Assembly: GCA_022843925.1 (NCBI GenBank) | Contig: JALHMS010000016.1 | Coordinates: forward strand, 1 to 64,000 | Direction of reading: 5' to 3' | DNA: 64,000 bases | Source: Burkholderiales bacterium | Lineage (GTDB): Bacteria > Pseudomonadota > Gammaproteobacteria > Burkholderiales > Ga0077523 | Shown here: positions 9,466-60,092 of the stretch, one piece after another | Layout of the letters: every line of letters starts with the position of its first letter | Position numbering within the stretch: the stretch's first letter is position 1 | Program-made: the position numbers and the translations under genes | Notes under the pieces: generated by a model | Database searches by the model: none | What the model was told of the DNA's origin: nothing | What the model saw: only the letters and a program-made list of their open reading frames with translations

Positions 9466-12400
9466 ATGACCGCATCCCACCTGTCCGCCCCGCATCGTCG
9501 GGCGGAAGCGCTGCGCCGTCGCGCAGCCCCTCGCCGCAACCGCCTCCTCCTCGCGCTCGCGCTCGCCTTCCCGGCGCTCGACGCGCAGGCCATCACCCTC
9601 TTCTGGGACGCGAACCTGATTGTCGCAGGCACGGGCGGGAGCGGCACATGGACGGCGAAGAGCGCCAACTGGGCGCCGACCGCTGCGGGTATCTCGCTGA
9701 TAGGGTTGGGCTCCAACGCGGTCGACTGGCCCAACAACCGCGACGGCCGCGCCGTGTTCGCGGGCAGCTTCGGCACCGTCACCATCGCCGGGACCGTGAT
9801 CGCCAACACGGTGGATTTCCGGACCAATGGCTATGGCTTGACGGGCGGCACCCTCTTCCTCACGAACGACAACGGCAACACCGGCGGCAGCATCGTCGTG
9901 AGCGCGGGCGCCACCGCTACGATCGCCTCCACCCTCGATGCCCCCGTGGCGCAAGGCGGCCGTCGCATCAATCTGGATGGCCCCGGCACCCTCGTCATGT
10001 CCAACCCCACGCGATTCACGGGCGCCCTGGACGTGCGCAGCGGCACGCTGCGTCCAAGGGAAGTGGACAGCCTCGGCGGCACGTTCGTCGATCTGTCCGG
10101 AGCGACATCCACCCTGGACATGGGCGCGCTGTCCACCGTCCACGTCGGGGGACTGTCCACGTCGCGTGCGCTGGCACTGGGCAATGCCCAACTGGTCATC
10201 ACAGGCGCCGGGGAGTTCGGCGGCTCGTCCCAGTGGCTGGGGACCGTGACAGGATCGATCAACAGCGGCGTGTTCGTCGGTACCGAGAGAGGCGTCACCC
10301 TCCGGATCGGCGCCCAGGGCCCGACCCGCACCACGGTCAACGCCGGATTCCTGCACTACAACGCCGGCGACTCGTTCATCCGCAATGCCGACGTGACCCT
10401 GACGCAGACCGGCAGCACCGGATTCAGCGGCCGTTCGTCGCTGTTCCTGGAACTCGGCACCAGCCTGACGGTGGACAACGGCTCCATCCTCACGCTGACG
10501 GGAACGCCGCAGCTCCACAACGACGCCGTGCTCACGGTCACGGGCGGGTCGAGGCTGTCCGTCGTGCGCACGCCGGCCGGCGACGAGGCGTCCCTGCGCA
10601 TCGGCTTCGCCGGGGGCACATCCAAGCTGAACGTAACCGGGCAGGGGACGAGGGTGGAGTCGGCCGACTCGCTGCGCCTCGGCTTCGCCGACTTCGCGCC
10701 GAATCCGGGCGTTGGCGAAGTGACCGTCGGCGCGGGGGCGACGCTGGTGGCACCGATCCTCTCCTTCTCTGCCCAGGCATCATCGCTGGTGGTGACCGAC
10801 GGCGGCACGGTCGTCTTCAACCGCTTCGACTCCCGTAGCGGCCGCGATCGCAGCGGCACCATCCGCCTCGACGGCGGCGCCTTCCAGATCGGCGGTGATC
10901 CGCAATCGTCCCTGGCCACCGGCGGCTCGTTCTTCAACGGCAGGCTGACCGGTGCCGCCGGCACCTTCACCAAGGTCGGCCCGGGAGATACGGTACTCAC
11001 GTCCAGCGAGAGCGATTTCGCCGGCGCCGTCGTGATCCAGGGCGGCCAGCTGCTCGTCGCACCCGGCGCGTTGAAGAACGCGGTGCTCACGATGGCGCCG
11101 GGCGCCGTCCTCACCGCCCCGGCGGCGACGGTCGACACGCCGCTGCAGATCGGCGCGCTGAGCGGACGGTTCGATTCCGCGCTCGCGAACGTGACCGTGC
11201 GGCTCGGTGGCGGCGATCACACGGCCACGTGGTCGGGACGGTTCACCTCCGGCGAGGTGGGTGTCACGCGGAGCGGGGGAACCGGCGTCCAGATCATCGA
11301 AGGCGGCACGAGTGCGGCCCCATTCACAGCCCCTCTGCTTTGGACGATGGGCGGCACGTTCCGGCTGTCCGGCGGCGCCTTCCGCCTGAACAACGTGACG
11401 ACGCAGGACCTGGCGCGCGCACCGCTCCGCGCCGACGGCGCGACCGCGCTGATCGACATCGCCGACGGGGCGCAGGTCACCACGGGGGCCGGGGTGGGGA
11501 TCGCCAACGGCGGAAGCATCCGTGTCGCCGGGATCGACACCCGGCTGACGGTGGATGGCAGCATCGGCTTCGGGGTGGCCCGGGTCGGTTGGACTGGCGG
11601 AGGGACGCTGGAAGTCACGAACGGCGCCTCGGTGTCGGCGGGCAATCTTTTTCTCGGGAATGCTGACGAACCGGACGCGGGCAGCGCGATCCGCGTGAAC
11701 AGGGGCGGCCGCATAGACGCGGACGTGCTGCATTTCGAAAGCACGACGGCGGCGCTGACGATCGACCAGGGCACCGTCACGACCCGTTCGATTTTCAGTC
11801 GTGATCCCGGCACCTCCGCCGGGATCATCAGCCTCAGCGACCCGATCGCCGCTCCGGGTGTGGCCACCCTCACCGCGCCAGCCGCATTGACGGTGACCCG
11901 CCGGGTGGGGATCCAGCAGGTCCGGGCAGTGACGATCACCGACGCCGCCTCCGGCCCCGGCAGCATCGCCTTCGTCGGATCGAACTTCGAGCAGACCTTG
12001 GGCGGCACCCTCACCTACACCGGACGCACGATCGTCGATGGCGCGGGAGCGAAGCTCAACCTGATATCCCCGCTCGCCTCCCGCGAACTCATCGCCCGCA
12101 ACGGCGGCACGATGACGTTCGCCGGCGTGGGAGCCGCGTTGCCCTGGGATGCCGGCCGCACGAACTTCCGCACGGACGCCACCAGTACCATCGCCTTCGA
12201 GGGCACGCGTCTCGAAGGCGGCGTGCTCCGCGGCACCGGCTTCCAGGTGAACGGCCCCGACGTGAGCACCTTCGACGGCACGACCCTCGGCATCAATTCG
12301 CGCCTCGCCGCAACCGGGGATGTGGCCTGGTCGAATGCCGTGCTGCAGGGCCGCCTCGACACCTTTGCCGGTGTCGCCCTCGACAACATGACGATCTCCA

Positions 12401-52557: not shown

Positions 52558-54366
52558 ATGAAGCTGAAACAGATGTCGTTTGCTGTTGTGCTTTGCAGTG
52601 CCATCGCATTGCCTGCCGCGGTGCAGGCCAACCCGGAAGTCGAGGGGTTGATCGCCGACCCCGGCAACTGGGCCATGCAGGCCGGTGACATGTACAACCA
52701 GCGCTACAGCAAGCTGAAGCAGGTCAAGGACAGCAATGTCAACCGTCTCCAGGTCGCGTGGACATTCTCGACCGGTGTGTTGCGCGGCCACGAAGGTTCG
52801 CCACTCGTGATCGGCGACACCATGTACATCCACACCCCCTTCCCCAACAAAGTCTTCGCGATGGATCTCAATTCGCAGACCATCAAGTGGAGGTACGAGC
52901 CGAAGCAGGATCCGGCCGTCATCGCGCAGATGTGCTGCGACACGGTCAATCGCGGTGTGGCCTATGGCGACGGCAAGATCTTCCTGCAGCAGGCCGATTC
53001 CATGCTCGTGGCGCTGGATGCGCAGACGGGCAAGGTGGTCTGGTCGGTGAAGAACGGCGATCCGAAGATGGGCGCCGTGAACACCAACGCCCCGCACGTC
53101 TTCAAGGACAAGGTGATCACCGGGATCTCGGGCGGTGAATGGGGTGTGCGCGGTTTCGTCGCGGCCTACGACATCAAGACCGGCAAGCTGGTGTGGAAGG
53201 GCATGAGCCAGGGCCCGGACAGCGAGATGCTGGTGGATCCGGACAAGACCACCACCTGGATGGACGGCAAGGTCCAGCCGGTCGGGCGCAATTCCTCCAT
53301 CAAGACCTGGACGGACGACGAGTGGAAAGTCGGAGGCGGCACGACGTGGGGTTGGTACAGCTACGACAAGGAGCTGAACCTGATGTACTACGGTACCGGC
53401 AACCCCGGCACCTGGAACCCCTCGCAGCGCCCCGGTGACAACCGGTGGTCGATGACCGTCTTCGCACGCGACGTGGACACGGGGATGGCCAAGTGGGTCT
53501 ATCAGATGACGCCGTTCGACGAGTGGGACTTCGACGGCATCAACGAAATGATCCTCGCGGACATCAACGTCAAGGGCAAGATGACCAAGGCCCTCGTGCA
53601 CTTCGACCGCAACGGCTTCGGCTACACGCTCGATCGCACCAATGGCGCGTTGCTCGTCGCCGAGAAGTTCGACCCGGCGGTGAATTGGGCAACGCACGTG
53701 GACATGAAGTCCGGTCGTCCACAGGTCGTGTCGAAGTACAGCACCGCGCAGAACGGTCCGGATGTCAACACGAAGGGGATCTGCCCTGCCGCGCTCGGTT
53801 CCAAGGACCAGCAGCCCGCAGCGTTCTCGCCCGTCACCCGCCTGTTCTACGTACCGACCAACCACGTCTGCATGGACTACGAGCCGTTCAAGGTCGACTA
53901 CGTTGCGGGTCAGCCCTATGTCGGCGCCACCCTGGCGATGTACCCCGCACCGGCCAGCCATGGCGGAATGGGCAACTTCATCGCGTGGGATGCCGGCACC
54001 GGCAAGATCGTCTGGTCCAACCCCGAGAAGTTCTCGGTGTGGAGCGGCGCTCTCGCCACCGCGGGCAACCTCGTGTTCTACGGGACGCTCGAAGGCTACC
54101 TCAAGGCGGTGCGCAAGACCGACGGCAAGGAGCTTTGGAAGTTCCGGACGCCCTCCGGCATCATCGGTAACGTGTTCACCTACGAGCACCGTGGTCGCCA
54201 GTTCGTCGGCGTGTACTCTGGCATCGGCGGCTGGGCCGGCATCGGCATGGCCGCAGGTCTCGAGAAAGACAGCGACGGCCTCGGCGCCGTGGGCGGTTAC
54301 CGGGATCTGGCGAAGTACACCGACCTCGGCGGCTCCCTGATCGTGTTCGCCTTGCCCGAGAACTGA
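52558..54366 (+). CDS. xoxF: Lanthanide-dependent PQQ methanol dehydrogenase XoxF
   Basis: A 602-residue periplasmic quinoprotein with signal peptide [20 protein letters not shown] (cut near VQA). AGGAGG precedes the ATG. It is an eight-bladed propeller with Trp-docking repeats. The vicinal disulfide over PQQ is Cys126-Cys127 ([11 protein letters not shown]). The active site [12 protein letters not shown] has catalytic Asp324 and the extra Asp326 two residues on; that second Asp coordinates the lanthanide and separates XoxF from Ca-dependent MxaF. It oxidises methanol (possibly other alcohols) and passes electrons to the cytochrome encoded next. MxaI is absent, as expected. No pqq genes are in the window. 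Confidence 0.96.
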
Positions 54367-54503: not shown

Positions 54504-54896
54504 ATGATCCGGAAGTTGACGTTTGCGATCTGTCTCGCAACAGCGATGTCCGGTGGAGCTTTCTCGGAGGACAAGCTCTACACGGTGGTGGACGGTTTCA
54601 AGGTCGATGCGAACACCATGAAAGGGTTCCGGGCGTGGCGTGCTGCCGCCTGCGATCGCTGTCATGGGCCGAACCAGGAAGGGATGGTGGGGCCGTCGTT
54701 GATCCAGAGCCTGAAAGTCCTCACCAAAGAGGAGTTCATGAAGGTTGTCATGGAGGGACGGCTCGAGAAGGGGATGGTCAGCTTCAAGGAGAATCCCCAG
54801 GTCGTGCAGAACATCGATAGTCTCTACGCCTACCTCAAGGGTCGCTCCGACGGCGCGATCACCCGGGCGAAGGTACAGGAGATCTCGAGCGAGTGA
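54504..54896 (+). CDS. xoxG: XoxG-type cytochrome c (cL), electron acceptor of XoxF
   Basis: A 130-residue periplasmic monohaem cytochrome. The signal peptide MIRKLTFAICLATAMSGGAF is cut near FSE. The haem site is Cys50-x-x-Cys53-His54 (ACDRCHGPNQ), and a Met in GRLEKGMVSF is the likely axial ligand. A purine-rich GAAGGAAAGAAGA precedes the ATG. Size and position directly after xoxF mark it as the dedicated acceptor. Its last codons overlap the next gene (GTGA). Confidence 0.92.
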   Translation: MIRKLTFAICLATAMSGGAFSEDKLYTVVDGFKVDANTMKGFRAWRAAACDRCHGPNQEGMVGPSLIQSLKVLTKEEFMKVVMEGRLEKGMVSFKENPQVVQNIDSLYAYLKGRSDGAITRAKVQEISSE

Positions 54897-55759
54897 TCCC
54901 CTTGCGCCCCCTCGTCGTAGGGACCGGACTCGTTCTCGCGGTTGCGTTGCTCGCACTACCCGCACGCGGCAATGAAGGGTTGGAGGGCGTCCGTGCCCTC
55001 CGCGTCTGCGAGGACCCGAACAATCTGCCGTTCTCCAACCAGGCCCAGGAGGGCATCGAGAACCGCATCGCCAAGATCCTGGCCCGTTCTCTCGCTCTGC
55101 CGCTCGAGCACTACTGGTATCCCCAGCGGGTGAACTTCGTCCGGAATACGCTCCGTTACAAGCTGCCCGGAGATGCCGAGTTCCGCTGTGACGTCATGAT
55201 GGGCGTTCCCGCCGGATTCGATCAGGTCGCCACAACGCGTCCCTACTACCACTCCACCTACGCGCTGGTCTACGTGAACGGACGCAAGCTCGACGGCATC
55301 GACAGCAGTGCGGCGTTCCTCGCCAGGGCCTCGGCGGCGGCTGACGTCAAGATCGGGCTCTACGATCGCTCCCCCGCGACGCAGTGGGTGAACCGGCACG
55401 GCCTGAGCGAGCAGGCGATTCCCTACCGCATCCTGAATGCCGATCCGGAGCACTACCCCGGTCAGATCATCGAGAAGGACCTGATGGCCGCCAAGATCGA
55501 CGTGGCCATCGTGTGGGGGCCCATCGCAGGCTTTTTCGCCAAGCGTGCCGCCGGCCCCGGCCTGACGGTGATTCCATTGCAGTCCGAGCCCGGCGTGAAG
55601 TTCGACTTCGGGATGGCGATGGGTGTACGACACGGAGAACCGGCGTGGCGTGACGCCATCCAGGCTGCGCTCGACGCCAACGCAACCGAGATCGAAGCGG
55701 TGCTCCGGGAATTCGGCGTACCGCTGGTCGACGAGACCGGCAAGCAGCGGCCCCGTTAG
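54893..55759 (+). CDS. xoxJ: XoxJ/MoxJ-like quinoprotein-associated periplasmic binding protein
   Basis: A 288-residue exported protein starting at GTG 54893 inside the xoxG stop. The signal peptide ends near ALPARG. The family start ALRVCEDPNNLPFSNQAQEG is clear, and the periplasmic binding fold type II continues (RCDVMMGVPAGFDQVATTRP, IDVAIVWGPIAGFFAKRA). It matches the quinoprotein dehydrogenase-associated binding proteins placed next to xoxF/xoxG. They have no ABC permease partner and are thought to help activate or mature the dehydrogenase. Confidence 0.92.
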   Translation: MIPLRPLVVGTGLVLAVALLALPARGNEGLEGVRALRVCEDPNNLPFSNQAQEGIENRIAKILARSLALPLEHYWYPQRVNFVRNTLRYKLPGDAEFRCDVMMGVPAGFDQVATTRPYYHSTYALVYVNGRKLDGIDSSAAFLARASAAADVKIGLYDRSPATQWVNRHGLSEQAIPYRILNADPEHYPGQIIEKDLMAAKIDVAIVWGPIAGFFAKRAAGPGLTVIPLQSEPGVKFDFGMAMGVRHGEPAWRDAIQAALDANATEIEAVLREFGVPLVDETGKQRPR

Positions 55760-55768
55760 CAGCGGGCG

Positions 55769-56041
55769 ATGCCCGCGAAAGCGACGGTTGCGGTGGAAGA
55801 GGTTCCCGGTATCCGCCGCGTCCGCGGCCATGGACCGCTCTGCAGAGGCGGTGGTTGCACCAACTGCCGCCGCGACGGTCACGATTCGCAGGCTGATGTC
55901 GACGGCGCAACGTTCAGAGAGCGAGGATGGATCGTGAAGCATCCGACGCCCCTAGCGGGGCAATGCAGGGAGACCTCAGCGCATCATCGGCTGCTCACCC
56001 ACAGTCGCAGGGTACTCGTTTCGAGAGCCCCCGGTTGCTAG
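55769..56041 (+). CDS. Possible small Cys-rich protein (doubtful)
   Basis: A 90-codon frame fills the gap between xoxJ and the protease. It begins MPAKATVAVEEVPGIRRVRG and holds a metal-ligand-like cluster CRGGGCTNCRRDGHD. Its first about 60 codons use GC-rich third positions like the neighbours; the rest does not. There is no convincing ribosome site. It may be a small unexported protein or simply the leader of the next gene. Confidence 0.25.
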   Translation: MPAKATVAVEEVPGIRRVRGHGPLCRGGGCTNCRRDGHDSQADVDGATFRERGWIVKHPTPLAGQCRETSAHHRLLTHSRRVLVSRAPGC

Positions 56042-56058
56042 CCGAACGGCCGAACACC

Positions 56059-57102
56059 ATGCGTTCACGCGCGGCATCGCCCCGCAGTCGAACGATCGGA
56101 TGGTGCTGGGCGCTGGCACTCCTGGCCGCGGTGCCCGCTTGGTCCGCGCCGGACCACGCACTCTTCCTGCGACTCGCCCGCAGCATCGTGAAGGTCGAAG
56201 TGGTCATGGACGGAGGGCGCTACTTCGTCGGGACTGGCACGGTCGTGGCGCGCGAACGGGTCGTCACGGCATGCCACGTCACTCAGCGGGCGACGCGGAT
56301 CCACGTGCTTTTCGGGGGCGTCAGGCGCCCGGCGGTCAGTCAGCGCGCGGACATGGCCCACGATCTCTGCCTGCTCGATGTCCCGGACCTCGAAGCCGAG
56401 CCCGCCGAAGTGGGACGCAGCAATCTGCTGCAGATTGGCGAACAGGTGGTCGCCCTCGGTTTCACGGGCGGCGCGAGCCTCAGCCCCGCGGTGGGGACGG
56501 TCGAGGGGTTGCATCGCGTGGACGGCGCGCAGGTCGTGCAGTCGGATGCGGGGTTCAGTTCCGGTGCGAGCGGTGGCGGCATGTTCGACGAGCGGGGAGC
56601 TCTGGTTGCCATCCTGCTTTTCCGCATGCGAGGTCCCGGTCCCCAGTTCTTCGCGGCACCGGTCGAGTGGTTCGAAGACTGGATCGCGCGCACGGACGCC
56701 TACGCGCCGGTCATGCCGCTGACGGGCGCGCCGTTCTGGGCGAAGGAGACGGTCGATCTCCCCAACTTCATGCGCGCAAACACGCTCGAGGCGCAAGCCC
56801 GGTGGACTGATCTGCAGGCGTTTGCCGACCTTTGGGCATCGGAGGATGGCGCCAGCTCCGAGGCGGCGTACTGGCAGGGTTTCGCCGCGTCCCGCCTGAA
56901 TCTCGACGCATCGGCGATCGCCGCTTTCGAGCGCGCCGTGCGGCTCGATGAGAAGCATGCTCTGGCGTGGTACCGCCTGGGCCAGACCTTCCTCCATGCA
57001 GGGCGCGCCGCCGATGCGCGGGCCGTCATTCCTCACCTGCTCGCGGCGAGCGAACCCCTGGCGCGCAGGCTGATCCACGACCTTCCGGACATACCAGACT
57101 GA
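56059..57102 (+). CDS. Exported trypsin-like serine protease with TPR-like C-terminus
   Basis: A 347-residue protein. ATG 56059 precedes a signal peptide (SRTIGWCWALALLAAVPAWS). Residues 35-215 are a chymotrypsin-fold protease: His73 (VVTACHVTQR), Asp102 (MAHDLCLLDV) and Ser171 (GFSSGASGGGMF), in the correct order. Residues about 250-345 form helical TPR-like repeats (AIAAFERAVRLDEKHALAWY, RLGQTFLHAGRAADARAVI). No PDZ domain is present, unlike DegP. It lies in the same direction as xoxFGJ and 2 bp before the next gene, so it looks like part of the quinoprotein cluster, perhaps for processing or quality control. Confidence 0.85.
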   Translation: MRSRAASPRSRTIGWCWALALLAAVPAWSAPDHALFLRLARSIVKVEVVMDGGRYFVGTGTVVARERVVTACHVTQRATRIHVLFGGVRRPAVSQRADMAHDLCLLDVPDLEAEPAEVGRSNLLQIGEQVVALGFTGGASLSPAVGTVEGLHRVDGAQVVQSDAGFSSGASGGGMFDERGALVAILLFRMRGPGPQFFAAPVEWFEDWIARTDAYAPVMPLTGAPFWAKETVDLPNFMRANTLEAQARWTDLQAFADLWASEDGASSEAAYWQGFAASRLNLDASAIAAFERAVRLDEKHALAWYRLGQTFLHAGRAADARAVIPHLLAASEPLARRLIHDLPDIPD

Positions 57103-57104
57103 CC

Positions 57105-57458
57105 ATGAACAAGACTTGCCACGGCCTGATGTTTGCGGCGTTGGGAGCGATCGCGACGAGCGACGCTTGGGCCCACGACTATCCCACCGCGGAGCGGGTC
57201 GAGTTCGTCCTCGAGTGCATGCGAGACCACCCGGGCCCGGAGTTCGAGATGGTCCACAAGTGCTCGTGCGCGATCGACCGCATCGCCGAGGTACTCACCC
57301 ACGACGCCTTCGTGGAGGGTTCGACGCTGGCGAAGGCCGTGACCATCGCCGGGGAGCGCGGCAGCGTGCTGCGGGACAATGAGGCGGCTCAGGCCGACGC
57401 GCGCAAGTTCCGTTCGCTCTACAAGGAGGTTCGTCGGAAATGCATGTTCCGTCCATGA
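57105..57458 (+). CDS. Small exported cysteine protein of the quinoprotein cluster
   Basis: A 117-residue protein with signal peptide MNKTCHGLMFAALGAIATSD (cut near AWA-HDY). The mature protein is mostly helical with Cys in VLECMRDHPG, HKCSCAIDRI and RRKCMFRP, which suggests two disulfides or a metal site. It begins 2 bases after the protease stop and overlaps the next gene by 19 bases, so the three are surely co-transcribed. I do not recognise a named family. Confidence 0.8.
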   Translation: MNKTCHGLMFAALGAIATSDAWAHDYPTAERVEFVLECMRDHPGPEFEMVHKCSCAIDRIAEVLTHDAFVEGSTLAKAVTIAGERGSVLRDNEAAQADARKFRSLYKEVRRKCMFRP

Positions 57459-58267
57459 CGCTGCTGCTCACGATCGCGCGCACGGTGATCCTGGCGGGTG
57501 CGCTCTGCGCTGTGCACGCGCTGCCGGCAACGGCGGCCGACAGCGAGGATGTCTGGCCCCGAGTCCGGGCGGGTCTGTTCGGCGATCGTCCGATCGCCGA
57601 CGCCGGCTTCGCACTGGCCCTGGCAGTGCCGAAGCGTGCGGAGGACGCCGCGGTGGTGCCCATTGCGATCCATGCGTTTCCCGCAGAGGGCCGGGGTGCG
57701 CCGCGCAAGCTCTATCTCATCATCGACGGCAACCCCTCCCCCGTCTCGGCGGTCTTCGAGCTGGGCGAGGCCGTCGGCCGCGCGGAGATCGCCACGCGCG
57801 TGCGGGTAGAGGACAACAGCACGGTGCGCCTGATAGCGGAAGAGGCCGATGGCTCGCTCTCGATGACCACGCGGACCATCAAGGCGTCCGGTGGTTGCTC
57901 GGCCCCGGCCAACAAGCGGGAGGGCGACGCGAACCTGCTCGGCCAGATGCGCTGGCTGTTGCCGGAATCGGTGGTGCCGGGCGAGTCGACCCTCGTCACA
58001 CTGCTGATCCGCCATCCCAACCGGTCCGGCCTTGCGATGGATCAGCTGACCCGTCTGTACGAACCGCCGCACTTCGTCCGGCAGGTGAAGATCACCTATG
58101 CCGGGCAGACGGTCCTCTCCGCGGACGTGGACTTCTCCATCAGCGAGAACCCCGCGTTTCGCTTCGCGTTCAAGCCCTCGGTCGCCGGCGCACTGGCGGC
58201 GGAAGTGATCGACTCCAACGATCTCGTATTCGAAAGCTCGGTGGACATCCGTCCGACCCAGCCCTGA
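57440..58267 (+). CDS. Quinoprotein-dehydrogenase-associated SoxYZ-like carrier
   Basis: A 275-residue exported fusion of SoxY-like and SoxZ-like halves. Start ATG 57440 has AAGGAGG 10 bases upstream, within the previous gene; an ATG at 57455 is too far from it. The signal peptide ends LPATAA. The SoxY-like half carries the swinging-arm Cys153 in KASGGCSAP, here internal instead of C-terminal. The SoxZ-like half follows (LVTLLIRHPNRSGLAMDQLT, FVRQVKITYAGQTVLSADVD). This fused form is known from quinoprotein gene clusters. It may carry a sulfur or other covalent intermediate in the periplasm; no sox genes are nearby. Confidence 0.9.
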   Translation: MHVPSMTLLLTIARTVILAGALCAVHALPATAADSEDVWPRVRAGLFGDRPIADAGFALALAVPKRAEDAAVVPIAIHAFPAEGRGAPRKLYLIIDGNPSPVSAVFELGEAVGRAEIATRVRVEDNSTVRLIAEEADGSLSMTTRTIKASGGCSAPANKREGDANLLGQMRWLLPESVVPGESTLVTLLIRHPNRSGLAMDQLTRLYEPPHFVRQVKITYAGQTVLSADVDFSISENPAFRFAFKPSVAGALAAEVIDSNDLVFESSVDIRPTQP

Positions 58268-58286
58268 CCGGCAGGCGGATCGCTCG

Positions 58287-58781
58287 CTACCTCAGCCGTT
58301 CGCAAAGGCGCTTCGCCAGGGCATCCGTTGCCCGCAGCCAGGACTGATCGGTGTTGCCGCGCATGTCCACGGACCGCACATCGAGCACTCTGCCCGCGGC
58401 GTCCTGCACCTCGGCATTCAGATTCACGATCAGGTTGCTCACTTTCTGCACCCAGGTGAACACCACGACGTCTGCGCCGGCGGCCTTGGCGATGTCCTCT
58501 GCGCAGCCGTTGCACTGGTGCACGTAGGCGATCCGACTCTCCAGAAGCTCGACGACTTCCCGCGGCGGCGGGACGATCGAGAGCGTGGCGCAGGCACGTA
58601 GAGCGTCGGGAAATCGCGCTGTGACTTTTCTCATCCGACTTGCGTCCCCCTCACGCGTGACCGGGTCCCGCATCTCGTCGATCAGTTCGAATTCCAGCAC
58701 GACCGCGCGGGTCTGGGCCACGACCGGCATGACCGGCGACATGGCGATCAACAGGGCGGCGAGCATCCAGAGTCGGGGCAT
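58287..58781 (-). CDS. Exported DUF3280-like protein facing the xox cluster
   Basis: A 164-residue protein with signal peptide MPRLWMLAALLIAMSPVMPV (cut near VAQ). GAGGAG lies about 11 bases before the ATG. The mature sequence has IAYVHQCNGCAEDIAKAAGA, with a CxxC pair, then VVVFTWVQKVSNLIVNLNAE and DMRGNTDQSWLRATDALAKR. This matches the DUF3280 type often placed beside quinoprotein dehydrogenase genes. It converges on the SoxYZ-like gene with 19 bp between stops. The biochemical role is unknown. Confidence 0.8.
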   Translation of the reverse strand: MPRLWMLAALLIAMSPVMPVVAQTRAVVLEFELIDEMRDPVTREGDASRMRKVTARFPDALRACATLSIVPPPREVVELLESRIAYVHQCNGCAEDIAKAAGADVVVFTWVQKVSNLIVNLNAEVQDAAGRVLDVRSVDMRGNTDQSWLRATDALAKRLCERLR

Positions 58782-59101: not shown

Positions 59102-60092
59102 TTGACGAACGCCGCCGCGATCGCCTGCTTCTCGATGGAAATCGGTCTAGCCGACGCGCTGCCCACCAGCAGTGGCCATCAGCGTCTACGTCCACGGCGT
59201 GGCCAAGCGCCACGGTGCAATCTCGCGCCAGATGTTCGCGCAGCACAAGGTCGACTCGATCACCAACGGCGTGCACGTCGGATTCTGGACCGCGCCGGCG
59301 ATTCAGGCGCTGTACGATCGTCACATCACCGCCCGGCGCGAGGACAACGCGAGGCTGCGCTACGCGCTCGGCATTCCGCGCCATGAGGTCTGGGCTGCGC
59401 ACCAGACGGCGAAGGAAGACCTGGTCCGAGTGGTCAACCACCGCACCGGTGTCGGCATGTTCTCGAACGTGTTCACGCTCGGCTTCGCGCGCCGCGCCAC
59501 GCCATACAAGCGCGCCGACCTGCTGTTCCACGACGTGCCGCGGCTGTTTGCGCTGCACCACGCCGCCGGGCCGATCCAGATCGTCTACGCCGGCAAGGCC
59601 CACCCGCGCGACGGCGGTGGCAAGGACCTGATCCGGCACATACACGAGCACATCCGCGCGCTCGAGGGACAGATCAGCATCGCCTACCTCGAGGACTACG
59701 ACATGGCGCTCGCCCGCAGGATGGTGGCTGGCGTGGACTTGTGGTTGAACACGCCGCAGCCGCCGCTGGAGGCTTCGGGCACCAGCGGAATGAAGGCCGC
59801 CATGAACGGCGTGCCGCAGCTGTCGATACTCGACGGCCGGTGGCTGGAGGGCTGTATCGAAGGCGTGACGGGCTGGGCGATCGGCAACGACAACGGGACG
59901 AACTCCGCCGACGATCGCGCTGTCGACGCCCAGTCGCTCTACAACAAGCTCGAGACCGTGATCCCGCCGCTGTACTACCGCTACCAGGACCGCTATATGG
60001 ATGTGATGAAGCACGCCATCGCTCTGAACGGCTCCTTCTTCAACACCGAGCGCATGGTCGATCAGTACGTGCGCAAGGCCTACTTCCGCTGA
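59102..60092 (+). pseudogene. Alpha-glucan (glycogen) phosphorylase with internal deletion and frame change
   Basis: TTG 59102 opens LTNAAAIACFSMEIGLADAL then PTSSG, the normal N-terminus of short alpha-glucan phosphorylases. After about 24 residues homology jumps, in the +1 frame (from about 59172), to the C-terminal half: [45 protein letters not shown] and the PLP-lysine motif [14 protein letters not shown]. That half runs intact for about 306 residues to 60092. Some 200 or more central residues are missing, so the enzyme cannot be functional. The shortened frame could still be expressed from GTG 59172. It lies 26 bp before phosphoketolase, a common pairing. Confidence 0.85.

Follow-up and report, generated by a model that had tools for sequence, protein, structure and literature searches.

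A four-cysteine protein encoded in an extended xox cluster accompanies XoxF5 dehydrogenases and may assist their assembly or activation

Composition of the xox cluster

The stretch of DNA analysed here (the window) comprises 64,000 nucleotides, positions 1 to 64,000 of contig JALHMS010000016.1 from a Burkholderiales bacterium (assembly GCA_022843925.1). It contains an extended xox cluster in which one gene encodes a 117-residue protein, hereafter c117, that we found in all 77 distinct XoxF5 genomes of three pooled genome samples. The cluster runs on the forward strand from xoxF (52558-54366; TIGR03075, 732 bits against a cut-off of 480) through xoxG, a c-type cytochrome gene named from its position only (54504-54896; PF13442, 36.4 bits against 27), and xoxJ, encoding a quinoprotein-associated periplasmic binding protein (54893-55759; TIGR03871, 275.7 bits against 212.15), to a 347-residue trypsin-like protease with a signal-like N-terminus (56059-57102; Trypsin_2, PF13365, 82.3 bits against 27.6), c117 itself, a four-cysteine helical protein that also has a signal-like N-terminus (57105-57458; no family), and a fused SoxYZ-like carrier with Cys153 in the motif GGCSAP (57440-58267; TIGR04557, 230.3 bits against 140), whose SoxY and SoxZ Pfam domains lie within one frame. 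A DUF3280 gene on the reverse strand (58287-58781; PF11684, 114.8 bits against 30.1) faces the cluster and recurs in related loci. Curated families back every part of the cluster except c117, which has none, and xoxG, which matches a general cytochrome model only and reaches 60.4 bits against TIGR03874, the model of methanol-related c-type cytochromes, under its cut-off of 161.75.

All of these genes had been named in the initial annotation, which also mentioned 2-bp gaps or overlaps; these are a 2-bp gap between the protease and c117 genes and a 19-bp overlap of the carrier start with c117, which shrinks to 4 bp should translation begin at the ATG at 57455. The residue numbers given for the protease (His73/Asp102/Ser171) and for carrier Cys153 proved correct, and the catalytic triad stands, but the tetratricopeptide repeats (TPRs) ascribed to the protease are weak, TPR_17 alone reaching its cut-off, and that exactly (24.4 against 24.4). 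All seven genes recur in identical order, at 76-94% identity, in the locus of the nearest relative (L022), and the arrangement is therefore not a product of chance.

In a quick 77-row tree, the window XoxF falls inside a 52-row XoxF5 clade with a support of 99 in the Shimodaira-Hasegawa-like approximate likelihood ratio test (SH-aLRT), together with two records annotated as XoxF5. The c117-linked copies that diverge most (56-57% identity) also belong to this clade; the groups outside it are the XoxF4-like one of family f26 and three more. This tree has several long branches and carries SH-aLRT values without bootstrap, and its clade rows represent 44 of the 77 XoxF5 genomes. XoxF5 status in the samples was assigned by identity to the window XoxF (at least 71% in the order sample and at least 57% in the phylum sample, some of it over partial length) and is tree-checked for 44 of the 77. 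The window XoxF has the vicinal pair Cys126-Cys127, and its Asp324-Phe-Asp326 contains the extra metal-binding aspartate (DxD). The extra aspartate of XoxF is described in PMC10875860, which also gives XoxF5 as the largest XoxF clade reported so far.

From its N-terminus, read by eye as a signal peptide, c117 is probably a secreted or periplasmic protein, and the mature part of about 94 residues holds its four cysteines, Cys38, Cys53, Cys55 and Cys113. When 64 c117 rows were aligned (61 of them distinct over the last 80 residues), Cys38, Cys53, Cys55 and Asp58 were present in all of them and Cys113 in 63; the single row without Cys113 is a contig-end fragment, and every full-length homologue aligned keeps all four cysteines. 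Asp58 is the sole acidic residue common to the 64 rows, with positions 25, 48, 71 and 84 variable. Annotation gives c117 as a hypothetical protein. It matched nothing in Pfam or NCBIfam at E <= 1, its profile matched none of the PDB sequences, and a description of the family was found neither in these two collections nor in the part of the open-access literature covered. Scans of 15 homologues against Pfam and NCBIfam gave scattered weak matches only (best Pfam E 0.019, in one member; best NCBIfam E 0.05, to a family touched by three members), which we take as chance, and the Pfam family of the methanol dehydrogenase beta-subunit, MxaI, matched neither c117 nor 14 homologues. An AlphaFold2 model built on a 5-sequence alignment is all-helical, with five helices (mean pLDDT 76.2, pTM 0.62). 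A Foldseek search of the PDB with this model returned no match at E <= 0.001, and the best Z in VIA-align comparisons with 99 chains was 3.6, a value that speaks for neither a known fold nor a new one.

Distribution of c117, the protease and the carrier

To relate c117 to the dehydrogenase, we compared their occurrence in three samples. Among 250 genomes of the order, a profile search found c117 in 28, comprising all 26 XoxF5 genomes and two of the 224 others; in the phylum sample of 397 genomes, c117 was present in 38 of 38 XoxF5 genomes and in none of 359 others; and in family f94 (71 genomes) it was present in 18 of 18 and in one of 53, respectively. The pooled samples contain 80 distinct c117 genomes, 77 of which make up the entire XoxF5 set. 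The Fisher values per genome are 2.6e-33 (order), 5.7e-54 (phylum) and 6.1e-16 (f94), with kin genomes treated as independent, which related genomes are not; counting each genus once, which reduces this effect without removing it, leaves c117 in 13 of 13, 22 of 22 and 17 of 17 XoxF5 genera. The phylum XoxF5 set consists of 37 genomes obtained by search plus G478, whose XoxF5 (71%, at a contig end) was found on reading the locus, and in the order sample the XoxF of G008 and G131 matched over part of their length. Scoring covered the best 5 (order) or best 3 (phylum) XoxF candidates per genome, the best 18 or 11 for c117 and the best 8 for the protease, and some negatives may hide true copies because of these limits. 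Each genome yielded a single c117 match except G083, where it is in two pieces.

The association is with XoxF5 and not with XoxF in general. No c117 was found in 11 genomes holding only other XoxF clades (G036, G082, G125, G162, G194, G224, G253, G450, G470, G486 and G593); three of these, G082, G224 and G253, are absent from the tree and were classed as non-XoxF5 from their hit pattern and family. In three genomes of the window's own genus (G003, G005, G006), neither XoxF5 nor c117 was found.

Of 37 tabulated phylum genomes, 30 have the c117 gene on the same contig as xoxF and within 25 kb of it, five have it on another contig, and two (G347 and G419) have it far from xoxF. The position of c117 varies among loci, following the protease, preceding xoxF, diverging from xoxF or lying downstream of pqqE, and this constant presence combined with a shuffled position argues for a function with XoxF5 rather than for operon inertia. 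Often c117 adjoins or overlaps the SoxYZ-like gene; its neighbours in alphaproteobacterial loci include genes for ABC transporters and beta-propeller proteins, which we take for lut-like, and several c117 loci have an MxaD-like SRPBCC gene.

The initial annotation had allowed that the protease and the cysteine protein might be conserved next to xoxF in no other genome; the neighbourhood survey found both beside xoxF in many genomes. The protease is, however, a lineage-restricted part of the cluster. At E <= 1e-20, the search found it in 21 of the order's 26 XoxF5 genomes (G066, G068, G080, G127 and G150 being the five without a hit) and in 23 of the 224 remaining genomes; 16 of the 26 have it no more than about 2.5 kb from xoxF, and in G160 it stands beside c117 with xoxF on another contig. 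Among 20 loci of the phylum sample, only one has the protease, and that locus belongs to the window's order. The fused carrier, counted when over its cut-off and free of stops, occurs in 47 of the 250 order genomes, 23 of which are XoxF5 genomes; 22 of the 47 are without c117, and a fused carrier over the cut-off was not found in three of the 26 XoxF5 genomes (G066, G127 and G150), all of which have c117. The carrier cysteine is conserved in the alignment. At least three more fused carriers over the cut-off are encoded on other contigs of the window's genome (C7, C4 and C9 of G000).

Candidate counterparts in Methylobacterium extorquens AM1

Two of the loci (L122, genome G388; L118, genome G478) allow a comparison with M. 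extorquens AM1. Both contain xoxF-xoxG-xoxJ, folK, folB, folP, c117, a second uncharacterised protein, pqqE, a fused pqqCD and pqqB, with the xox genes facing the remainder of the row. In AM1, the locus numbers are 1740-1742 for xoxF1, xoxG and xoxJ, 1746 for orf6, 1747 for orf7, 1748 for pqqE, 1749 for pqqCD and 1750 for pqqB (PMC7391723). Since three genes fit the gap between 1742 and 1746 and the order matches, we expect orf6 to correspond to c117 and orf7 to the second protein; like orf6, c117 in both loci is preceded by three genes after xoxJ and comes two genes before pqqE. We regard c117 as the likely counterpart of orf6 (META1p1746), and from gene order the second protein is the predicted counterpart of orf7 (META1p1747). 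Because a different gene also goes by orf7 elsewhere, the locus tags are needed to tell the two apart.

Both AM1 genes were recovered in a transposon hunt for XoxF1 function (PMC7391723). On methanol with lanthanum (La), the orf6 deletion grew at 0.03 per h and the wild type at 0.16, the xoxF1 xoxF2, xoxG and xoxJ mutants each grew at 0.04 per h, and the orf7 mutant grew at 0.08 per h after a 9 h lag; the requirement for orf6 was seen only with La, according to the discussion of that paper, and the AM1 homologue of the MxaD-like gene was also needed with La (PMC7391723). The initial annotation asked whether mutants oxidise methanol normally, and the poor growth of the orf6 mutant with La answers this for c117 only if c117 is orf6.

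The second protein is encoded at 11201-11929 of the Azoarcus locus L102, at 8981-9694 of L121 and at 5570-6244 of L103, and its gene often immediately precedes c117. The two genes are 2 bp apart in Azoarcus and overlap in L121, and in the window this place belongs to the protease. The second protein has no Pfam or NCBIfam match over cut-off, and a search of the window's own genome, run without a positive control there, did not find it. The idea that it might be the protease was ruled out, as an alignment showed no likeness.

The XoxF of the L118/L121/L122 type groups with the XoxF encoded on a plasmid of M. extorquens CM4 (SH-aLRT 82). Genomes G308 and G530 were rejected as Methylobacterium-like hosts because their pqqC and pqqD are separate. 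On the CM4 plasmid pCMU01 (L106), an XoxF5-clade gene and a two-component system lie among transposases; over about 32 kb, the annotation, which was used here in place of a search of the DNA and has an incomplete gene table, lists no xoxG, xoxJ or c117.

Other features

Downstream of the cluster, an alpha-glucan phosphorylase frame (59172-60092) matches its profile over positions 262-599 of 600 only. Judged by eye, another frame immediately upstream seems to encode a phosphorylase-like N-terminus, so that the gene resembles one with a large internal loss. In alphaproteobacterial xox loci, a protein of about 203 residues recurs (L103, 8744-9352; L105, 21973-22581), the L103 copy being without a Pfam match.

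Discussion

We consider it probable that c117 is a dedicated periplasmic helper of XoxF5 assembly or activation that acts with XoxJ, and that the protease and the carrier are lineage-dependent additions. The observations behind this reading are the co-occurrence, the linkage, the conserved cysteines and the gene order. We infer the secretion of c117, its identity with AM1 orf6, its action with XoxJ and the biochemical step. c117 would be a small helical periplasmic protein, probably stabilised by disulfides, that together with XoxJ assembles or activates XoxF5, for example by holding apo-XoxF5 or securing its disulfides during insertion of pyrroloquinoline quinone (PQQ) and lanthanide. The protease might serve quality control and the carrier thiol chemistry, and c117 would work without either. 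The initial annotation had proposed a periplasmic maturation or relay module in which the protease and the cysteine proteins act on the dehydrogenase or its redox partners. Maturation or activation is retained as the presumptive task of c117; a relay with the protease and the carrier as necessary partners is not supported, because each was not found in some XoxF5 genomes.

Several points weigh against the helper function. In three of the c117 genomes (G012 and G040 in the order sample, G641 in f94), no XoxF5 was detected. The c117 locus of G641 (L145) still carries the SoxYZ-like carrier, zinc metallohydrolase and ABC genes typical of xox loci, and could be a relic of a lost xox cluster. Neither Foldseek nor VIA-align gave a structural match that would point to a mechanism, and the conserved cysteines suit a purely structural function no less than redox activity. 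To our knowledge, no such partner was present when XoxF5 proteins were purified and crystallised. The correspondence with orf6 draws on gene order and locus numbers only; the layout behind it is not fixed, since L121 (genome G281) has an extra gene, YkuD, between xoxJ and folK, and the hosts of L118, L121 and L122 are taken to be Methylobacterium-like only from their fused pqqCD and the tree. The accessible part of PMC7391723 reports no complementation of orf6, so the deletion may have been polar.

A narrower form of the helper function, in which the Cys-x-Cys pair of c117 is redox-active and forms or protects the vicinal disulfide of XoxF5 (Cys126-Cys127) before or during loading of PQQ and lanthanide, is conceivable but doubtful. 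We know of no dedicated disulfide factor for a quinoprotein so far, and c117 would be the first if this form were true.

Among the alternatives, c117 could be a thiol relay partner of the SoxYZ-like carrier, with a zinc metallohydrolase or a CXXCW protein, that moves sulfur or electrons or guards PQQ from sulfur compounds. The frequent adjacency or overlap of the two genes and the conserved cysteines of both proteins would suit such a relay, and the ped-cluster paper suggests that the SoxYZ/SoxH/rhodanese set has a disulfide function or protects PQQ (PMC12997753). We nevertheless find it unlikely, because the two proteins separate in both directions: three of 26 XoxF5 genomes have c117 and no fused carrier over the cut-off, and 22 of 47 carrier genomes have no c117. 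In addition, the Pseudomonas putida genes gave minimal phenotypes, although they were tested without rare earths (PMC12997753).

A part comparable with that of MxaI or MxaD, with c117 as a stable small subunit of XoxF5 or as its docking factor for electron transfer, is quite unlikely. The single match per genome (G083 with its two pieces apart) and the specificity for XoxF5 would be expected of such a protein, and an MxaD-like gene whose AM1 homologue is needed with La occurs in several c117 loci, but c117 matches no subunit family. As far as we know, XoxF5 was isolated and crystallised on its own, with no second subunit.

That c117 carries lanthanide through the periplasm to XoxF5 is very unlikely, because only one acidic residue, Asp58, is invariant in the 64 rows (positions 25, 48, 71 and 84 vary); nor was c117 found in genomes whose XoxF all belong to other lanthanide clades, and in favour of the idea stands the proximity of c117 to the presumed lut-like transporter and beta-propeller genes of alphaproteobacterial loci. 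Least probable of all is a hitchhiker on methylotrophy islands with no role in XoxF5 function, since, even though the clustering of the genes and the joint mobility of islands would allow it, the co-occurrence holds in 77 of 77 genomes over many gene orders, c117 lies far from xoxF in G347 and G419, its cysteine frame is conserved, and orf6 has a phenotype in AM1 if the orthology holds.

If XoxF5 needs c117, the gene would be a marker of XoxF5 methylotrophy and a missing part to add for production of XoxF5 in foreign hosts, and AM1 orf6 and orf7 would become testable assembly factors. An accessory factor of a dehydrogenase is not new as a kind, and the associations of SoxYZ-like proteins and XoxJ with quinoproteins are already in print (PMC12997753) or in curated family names; the c117 family itself was found described nowhere in the literature searched.

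Compared with known systems, the cluster protease shares its trypsin-like domain and catalytic triad with HtrA/DegP and other Trypsin_2 proteases, but differs from HtrA/DegP in its best TIGR02037 score (48.2 bits against a cut-off of 416.2), in giving no PDZ hit and in its weak TPR tail. The TIGR04557 carrier and its zinc metallohydrolase set, which have been associated with PQQ dehydrogenases (PMC12997753), are neighbours of c117 in many loci; the carrier differs in its distribution, being present in 22 of 250 genomes that have no c117 and not detected in three that have XoxF5. XoxJ/MxaJ (TIGR03871) belongs to the same clusters as c117, and the AM1 xoxJ mutant is as slow with La as the xoxF1 xoxF2 and orf6 mutants, but the two proteins have no family in common and XoxJ/MxaJ accompanies other quinoproteins too (PMC12997753), whereas c117, three genomes apart, was found with XoxF5 only. 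AM1 orf6 and orf7, treated as unknowns in PMC7391723, in the accessible part of which neither a family nor an XoxF5-wide link is described, are predicted from their positions to correspond to c117 and the second protein, and their deletions impair growth on methanol with La.

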